A stretch of DNA of 42,724 nucleotides from Nitrospirae bacterium GWB2_47_37. Lineage in GTDB: Bacteria > Nitrospirota > Thermodesulfovibrionia > Thermodesulfovibrionales > Dissulfurispiraceae. The stretch covers positions 1 to 42,724 of the forward strand of contig MHDU01000073.1 in the NCBI GenBank assembly GCA_001803635.1, given 5' to 3'. The translations under genes were made by a program, and so were the position numbers. This document shows, piece after piece, positions 6,448-7,457 of the stretch. How positions within the stretch are numbered: the stretch's first letter is position 1; the number at the start of each line of letters is the position of its first letter. The notes beneath the pieces were generated by a model. It saw nothing but the letters and a program-made list of their open reading frames with translations. It searched no databases and was not told where the DNA came from.

Positions 6448-6789
6448 TTATTTCATCTCCAACGGATATTCAGCCTTTCGCCAAGCGGCCCAGCCGCCTT
6501 TGAGGGCCGAGACCTTTGCGAACCCTTCTTCGATAAGTATGCCTGCCGCACGGGCGCTGGAGTGCTCTTCTTTTCAGGTGCAGTAGGCGATAATAGTACC
6601 GTTTTTATCCAGCCCCTTTGCGAATTCCTTTATTGCCGCATCATTGTTAGGGTCGAGATATACGGCGCCTTTTATCTTTTTGTTGCCGGTTGCATAGGCT
6701 CCGGGCTGCCGCACATCGAGGATAGTGAGGGCCTCTCCCCTGTCCATCATTGCCTTAAGCTCATCTGTTGTGATCCTCGGGACTTCCAT
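6448..6789 (-). CDS. Rhodanese-like protein, predicted selenoprotein (in-frame UGA read as selenocysteine)
   Basis: The reading frame starts at the ATG at 6789 with a strong GGAGGT Shine-Dalgarno 8 bases upstream. It meets a TGA at 6576-6574 after 71 codons and continues in the same frame to TAA at 6450-6448, giving 113 residues with one Sec. Before the TGA are the rhodanese features ILDVRQPGAY and AYCT; after it come KEEHSSARAAG, GFAKVSALKGGWAAW and YP, which complete the domain. Single-domain relatives commonly read YCTC or YCAC at this loop, so the UGA replaces the second Cys of CxC (C70-T71-U72). Rhodaneses move sulfane sulfur or bind selenium. A nonsense mutation is the alternative, but nothing after the stop has decayed. 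Confidence 0.8.
6541..6588 (-). promoter_or_regulatory. Candidate SECIS-type stem-loop around the rhodanese UGA
   Basis: On the minus strand GCCTACTGCAC (6588-6578) can pair with GTGCGGCAGGC (6551-6541): 11 pairs with one A-C mismatch and one G-U. The TGA lies one base inside the 26-base loop. An alternative smaller hairpin pairs GCAC (6565-6562) with GTGC (6551-6548), 8 bases after the TGA, with a 10-base loop. Bacterial SECIS elements lie at and just after the UGA, so either could serve. The geometry is not a textbook match. Confidence 0.4.
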
Positions 6790-6824
6790 ATATTACCTCC
6801 ATTTGCTGCTGTAATCTTTATTGC

Positions 6825-7457
6825 CTATCCTTCAAGCATAACTATGGAACACATCATTGCGACTGCCCATACAATGTCGGAAAGGGAGAGTTGAAACTCG
6901 CATGTGGAATCGAATAATAAGTCGGCCTTAGCCGGAAATTCTTCATCCTCAAGCCATAATATCATCGTAACAGGCACCCTCGGCAGAGAGAAAAGCCTTA
7001 TGCCGGCGTCTCCGTATCCCGTAAGTACTTCAGCGCCGTATTCCTGTCCCTTCGCGATAAAACCTTCGGGGTCTTTAGCGTATTTTTTCGCGATTTCATC
7101 AAGGGGAAGAACGTGCGTGCCTACAGTGAACTTATGACCGCCCTTTACATCCTCGGGCCTCAGCAATCTGCCGCTCTGCGGAATATCCATTGCGCTGTTC
7201 ATGTACCGGAGGATCGAAAGCCTGAAGAAGTCCTTGAGTTTGCCGAGGAACAAATCGCCTTTTTCGGAAGCGGCGGATATTCGCATTTCGCACGGGTTGA
7301 CATGAAAATCTATTCCGAAACATCTGAGCCTGAAAGCGCCGGCTTTCTCGTCAAAAACAGCGCCGGTTTTTCCGCATATTTCGTCACGGGAAAGCCCGCA
7401 TATTTTCTCCCATGCCTTTTCTTCGCCGTGTTCTATCTTAATAGGTACAAGTTCCAT
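6825..7457 (-). CDS. DUF3786 domain-containing protein
   Basis: A 210-residue soluble protein of a family I recognise as DUF3786, whose function is not established; it is found mainly in anaerobes. The recognisable part is the C-terminal half: GAEVLTGYGDAGIRLFSLP, then VPVTMILWLEDEEFPAKADLLFDS, and an amphipathic end with WAVAMMC. Cysteines at about 20, 28 and 46 do not form a standard metal motif. It lies 35 bases before the rhodanese and 32 bases after the DUF2062 gene. A TGn-TATATT box sits 6 bases before its ATG with no Shine-Dalgarno, so it may also have its own leaderless promoter. Confidence 0.75.
   Translation of the reverse strand: MELVPIKIEHGEEKAWEKICGLSRDEICGKTGAVFDEKAGAFRLRCFGIDFHVNPCEMRISAASEKGDLFLGKLKDFFRLSILRYMNSAMDIPQSGRLLRPEDVKGGHKFTVGTHVLPLDEIAKKYAKDPEGFIAKGQEYGAEVLTGYGDAGIRLFSLPRVPVTMILWLEDEEFPAKADLLFDSTCEFQLSLSDIVWAVAMMCSIVMLEG

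Follow-up and report, generated by a model that had tools for sequence, protein, structure and literature searches.

A leaderless Nitrospirota rhodanese with a predicted Cys-Thr-Sec active site and relatives with UGA codons at both active-site positions

GlpE-type rhodaneses have a single catalytic Cys, carried on a shorter loop, and lack selenocysteine (Sec, U), unlike the protein described here. Rhodaneses with a CxU loop are a catalogued kind of predicted selenoprotein. They are held as NCBIfam NF041203, as form 3 in a 2026 review that lists the family with one Sec (PMC13188914), and as form 2 of COG0607 (PMC9312934). The TsoB rhodanese/DsbD fusion-like selenoprotein (NF045694) has two Sec in a UxxxxU arrangement. 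Herein, we analyzed a rhodanese gene in a 42,724-nt stretch of DNA ("the window") from Nitrospirae bacterium GWB2_47_37. The window protein shares the domain, the CxU motif and one predicted Sec with NF041203 (rhodanese_LYCAU, "rhodanese-related (seleno)protein"). It differs in lacking an N-terminal leader, with its match starting at profile position 19, and in carrying a few more residues within its first half. It scored 114 bits on this profile against a cut-off of 115, which was its best NCBIfam match by about 70 bits, and the relatives L028 and L033 scored 163-165 bits. Because the cut-off was missed by one bit, we treat the window protein as a related, borderline leaderless branch and do not claim formal membership. 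NF045694 is likewise a rhodanese-domain selenoprotein with two Sec, as are the predicted UxU relatives described below, but its Sec spacing is different and it is a 572-position fusion, on which the window protein reached 30 bits (cut-off 805). A preliminary description of this locus had noted that rhodanese-related selenoproteins were already reported, and the catalogued CxU family agrees with this (NF041203; PMC13188914). The window rhodanese is thus a leaderless member of a known predicted selenoprotein kind; the selenoprotein idea is not new, and the locus is less novel than proposed.

The gene has 113 codons on the minus strand (window 6451-6789), from the ATG at 6789-6787 to the TAA at 6450-6448 (Table 1). 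Read through the TGA, it encodes MEVPRITTDELKAMMDRGEALTILDVRQPGAYATGNKKIKGAVYLDPNNDAAIKEFAKGLDKNGTIIAYCTUKEEHSSARAAGILIEEGFAKVSALKGGWAAWRKAEYPLEMK. Residues 7-105 of this product matched Pfam Rhodanese (PF00581; E 4.9e-18, 65.9 bits against a gathering cut-off of 22.2). The preliminary description had placed the TGA at 6576-6574 within an otherwise intact rhodanese, had claimed a Shine-Dalgarno sequence, and had expected automatic annotation to truncate the protein at 71 residues. All three points were borne out: the first by the reading frame, the PF00581 match and selection of equal strength before and after the TGA (below), the second by the GGAGG at 6800-6796, and the third by standard ORF calling, which yielded a 71 aa product. 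With the thresholds used, the window held 13 in-frame TGAs with open flanks, including this one, which was the only one shown inside a conserved domain; the other 12 were assessed by reading the flanking sequence only. Such TGAs arise readily by chance; one by itself is therefore weak evidence, and the real evidence comes from homologues.

Table 1. Positions of the rhodanese gene, its predicted recoding elements and its upstream neighbor in the window
Feature	Position	Strand	Basis
Predicted leaderless single-domain rhodanese selenoprotein, coding region (113 residues + TAA)	6448..6789	-	Sequence, Pfam, 27 aligned relatives at 81% to 31% identity
In-frame TGA, predicted Sec U72 of motif C70-T71-U72	6574..6576	-	Same-column TGA in 55/75 homologues with the motif, Cys in the remaining 20
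Shine-Dalgarno GGAGG, 6 nt 5' of ATG	6796..6800	-	Sequence
Predicted SECIS hairpin core GCC-CGUGC-GGC (consensus GCC-N-GU-N-Y-GGC)	6545..6555	-	Codon conservation, covarying arms, absent from Cys homologues
Possible hairpin extension CC-AGC-GCC-loop-GGC-A-GG, weak in window copy	6542..6560	-	Inspection; folds do not favor it thermodynamically
DUF3786 gene upstream of rhodanese, neighbor only	6825..7457	-	Pfam PF12654, E 9.6e-32

Homologues were gathered from 150 related genomes and 396 genomes of the phylum. The closest ones carried TGA in the same column as U72. Counting the window protein, 75 sequences had a [CU]x[CU] loop (41 CxU, 14 UxU and 20 CxC), and the column was TGA or Cys in the proportions of Table 1, a check that the preliminary description had proposed. 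The CxU relatives L047-L050 were in named Nitrospirae metagenome-assembled genomes (MAGs), as was the UxU relative L051. Longer Nitrospirota rhodanese-domain proteins (L103-L116, L118, L121) shared the loop C-x-C-P-N-[ED]-x-[ST]-[SA]-A; they differed in having Cys at both positions, open frames mostly over 300 aa, and no GU signature at codon 8 after the TGA (below). In six genomes tested with the long CxC form, no tRNA-Sec scored above the family cut-off. The genomes of three divergent CxC proteins (L043-L045) did have selA.

The preliminary description had proposed a check of the same genome for Sec machinery, and all four components were found. The host genome (2.47 Mb, 98% complete) contained selA (E 5e-188), selB (E 3.5e-117), selD (E 1e-96) and a tRNA-Sec scoring 71.2 bits, above cut-off, with which ARAGORN agreed. 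The selD gene (L060, 1501-2415) had its own in-frame TGA and a downstream hairpin, GGUCC-GUC-GGACC, with the apical loop GUC. Among the 150 related genomes, every one with an unambiguous CxU or UxU relative had selA or, in G086, tRNA-Sec; since 131 of the 150 have selA anyway, this co-occurrence is only modest evidence. Two apparent counter-examples, G086 and G097, in which selA was missed beside a TGA rhodanese, were set aside because both had tRNA-Sec (75 and 71 bits), and the G097 protein belongs to a different rhodanese family, CRGxGU. Together, the machinery, the TGA column, selection and the family hairpin support the earlier proposal that Sec replaces the second Cys of the loop. The UGA at 6576-6574 is thus very probably decoded as Sec, a reading drawn from comparison of sequences. 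The SelA/SelB/SelD/tRNA-Sec system of the host would carry out this decoding, directed by a short downstream hairpin with an apical GU.

This predicted hairpin lies 19-29 nt 3' of the UGA, its first stem base at 19 nt and its loop start at 22 nt. Codons 7-9 after the UGA (GCC CGT GCG in the window) were the top three of 101 usable columns for synonymous-codon identity relative to degeneracy. Codon 8 ended in T in 48 of the 51 Sec genes, vs none of 18 Cys genes (Fisher test, p 8e-14), and the third bases of Ser-6 and Ala-10 covaried as T-A or C-G by 44 against 6 (50 cases whose second site was A or G, p 2e-8), where both p-values overstate independence because related sequences were counted as independent. 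The Cys homologues encode almost the same peptide here (SSAR/TSAR), which makes them a good control for this signature. Computationally, these patterns demonstrate RNA-level constraint with covariation on the predicted family hairpin. The published bSECIS model asks for a stem of 4-16 bp, a minimum free energy at or below -7.5 kcal/mol, a G in the first two loop positions, and a loop 16-37 nt from the UGA (PMC13188914). The family hairpin agrees with this model in its stem, loop G and loop start. The window copy keeps the core and loop but has three G-C pairs followed by a C.A mismatch, below the published stem criterion, and the leaderless clade has lost part of the outer pairing. The window stretch downstream of the TGA folded no better than its shuffles (z +1.0); the core had -3.6 kcal/mol, and the best 51-nt fold reached -7.7 kcal/mol but was another structure. 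RNAalifold on ten leaderless relatives picked a different helix, without covariation. The hairpin was revealed only by codon conservation and covariation across the wider family, not by folding the window stretch alone, and a search starting from SECIS elements might overlook this copy.

Fourteen relatives had TGA at both active-site positions: L022-L027, L051 (5001-5339), L086, L092-L095, L097 and L098. Their loops were UTU, USU, UAU and UNU, and they occurred in both leaderless and leader-bearing branches, UNU in the leader-bearing one. Identity of the UxU relatives to the window protein reached 76% (L051). On a tree of the 75 proteins, built on 109 columns and with many forks unresolved, the UxU label needed 8 changes, of which well-supported branches force at least 5; the CxU protein L019 and the UxU protein L051 were sisters (95/87). 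These repeated changes indicate that the first position switched between Cys and Sec more than once. UxU genes have two UGAs six bases apart and one hairpin, whose loop starts about 22 and 28 nt away, both in range. We consider it reasonably probable that the leaderless clade has repeatedly swapped its catalytic Cys for Sec, giving UxU proteins in which both UGAs are decoded via one GU hairpin, and that these form an undescribed double-Sec rhodanese type. A text search of an incomplete literature set found no UxU or two-Sec rhodanese of this kind, which may be described elsewhere.

Other rhodaneses with in-frame UGA codons were also observed. L052 and L053 (from 5001), from Thermodesulfovibrio and another Nitrospirae MAG, are a different rhodanese-like candidate, YUNGVKCW, with TGA at the first position only. 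Another leader-bearing rhodanese family, YCRGxxUxxS (L100, L124-L130), had TGA in the same place in several genomes. L131 in G068 is a YUASGSRS rhodanese whose TGA occupies the canonical place of the catalytic Cys. The single-contig genome G125 held several paralogous UGA rhodaneses (L030, L084, L086 and L096), including one UxU copy; its L096 (YUAR) seems frameshifted.

AlphaFold predicted a rhodanese fold for the window protein (mean pLDDT 91), in which the strand at residues 65-69 runs straight into C70 and a helix follows at 76-87. The predicted fold resembled the PDB matches Alr3790, BH2092 and GlpE; with GlpE (PDB 1gmx), it shares the fold (TM 0.77-0.80), the single domain and the absence of a leader. 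The C70-T-U72 motif was located after the fourth strand, the place where rhodaneses carry their catalytic Cys. In this model, C70 is likely to occupy the usual position of the rhodanese nucleophile, with Sec72 two residues on; since aligning the sequences on the helix can move this position by two residues, the assignment falls short of certainty. L119 (YCTR) and L096 keep only the first loop position, which also favors C70 as the catalytic position.

Without a leader, the protein is probably cytoplasmic. We tentatively suggest that it may be a persulfide/polysulfide or thiol-disulfide oxidoreductase that works through C70-Sec72 and not a plain sulfurtransferase. C70 would bear a persulfide or another oxidized form; attack by Sec72 would release sulfide and leave a C70-Sec72 selenylsulfide, which thioredoxin or another thiol might reduce. 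The corresponding site of UxU relatives would form a diselenide. A competing account, which accepts Sec insertion and differs in the chemistry only, is that the protein acts as an ordinary sulfurtransferase or as a carrier that delivers selenium (selenide or selenite-derived Se). Its rhodanese fold and its conserved D25-x-R27 motif favor this account, and rhodaneses generally move sulfane sulfur. However, the CxU and UxU pairs, two residues apart, resemble a redox pair, and the 1-5 kb flanks gave no link to selD or selA. Beyond the fold, nothing in the sequences supported a selenium-transfer role. The window neighbors include no sel gene and do not recur around the leaderless relatives: DUF3786, DUF2062, thiL, lon and others were not found beside the leaderless relatives examined, except for DUF3786 near L021. 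Because flanking genes differ among relatives, operon logic was rejected as a clue to function, and the neighborhood gives no pointer to substrate. We regard the sulfurtransferase or carrier account as a real though somewhat doubtful possibility.

Sec decoding itself has weaker competitors. The TGA could truncate a dead rhodanese, as a pseudogene or a sequencing or assembly error; the window gene is one copy from a MAG, and the standard call is a truncated one. Against this, the same TGA column recurred in over 50 homologues from many genomes, and its recurrence in many independent relatives argues that it is not a read error. Among seven close relatives, pN/pS was 0.23 for the part upstream of the TGA and 0.20 for the part downstream, so the gene is not a decaying pseudogene, and synonymous sites of the hairpin were conserved. 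This explanation is highly improbable, and we rejected it as refuted for practical purposes. Alternatively, the 71-residue product, for which a standard ORF exists, could be functional, with the downstream part a leftover or a separate reading. Such a product would end at the active site and lack the helix and strand that come next in the rhodanese fold, as well as its GGW motif. Purifying selection is equally strong beyond the TGA, and this reading is exceedingly improbable. A reassigned code, in which UGA means Trp or another residue genome-wide, had nothing in its favor and is excluded, with a negligible chance of being right, because UGA is the ordinary stop of 14 of the 31 long ORFs of the window, both Trp codons of the gene are TGG, and relatives have Cys in this column.

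Our reading of this UGA as very probably Sec corrects an annotation that would otherwise be truncated and adds a leaderless Nitrospirota branch to a known predicted family. The analysis also supplies a codon-level SECIS signature for Nitrospirota. The UxU genes allow one to ask whether a single SECIS serves two nearby UGA codons. If the double-Sec interpretation is true, CxC, CxU and UxU proteins would be a natural series for testing the contribution of each Sec. This set within one small soluble fold raises the question of why these bacteria would pay for one or two Sec in sulfur handling.
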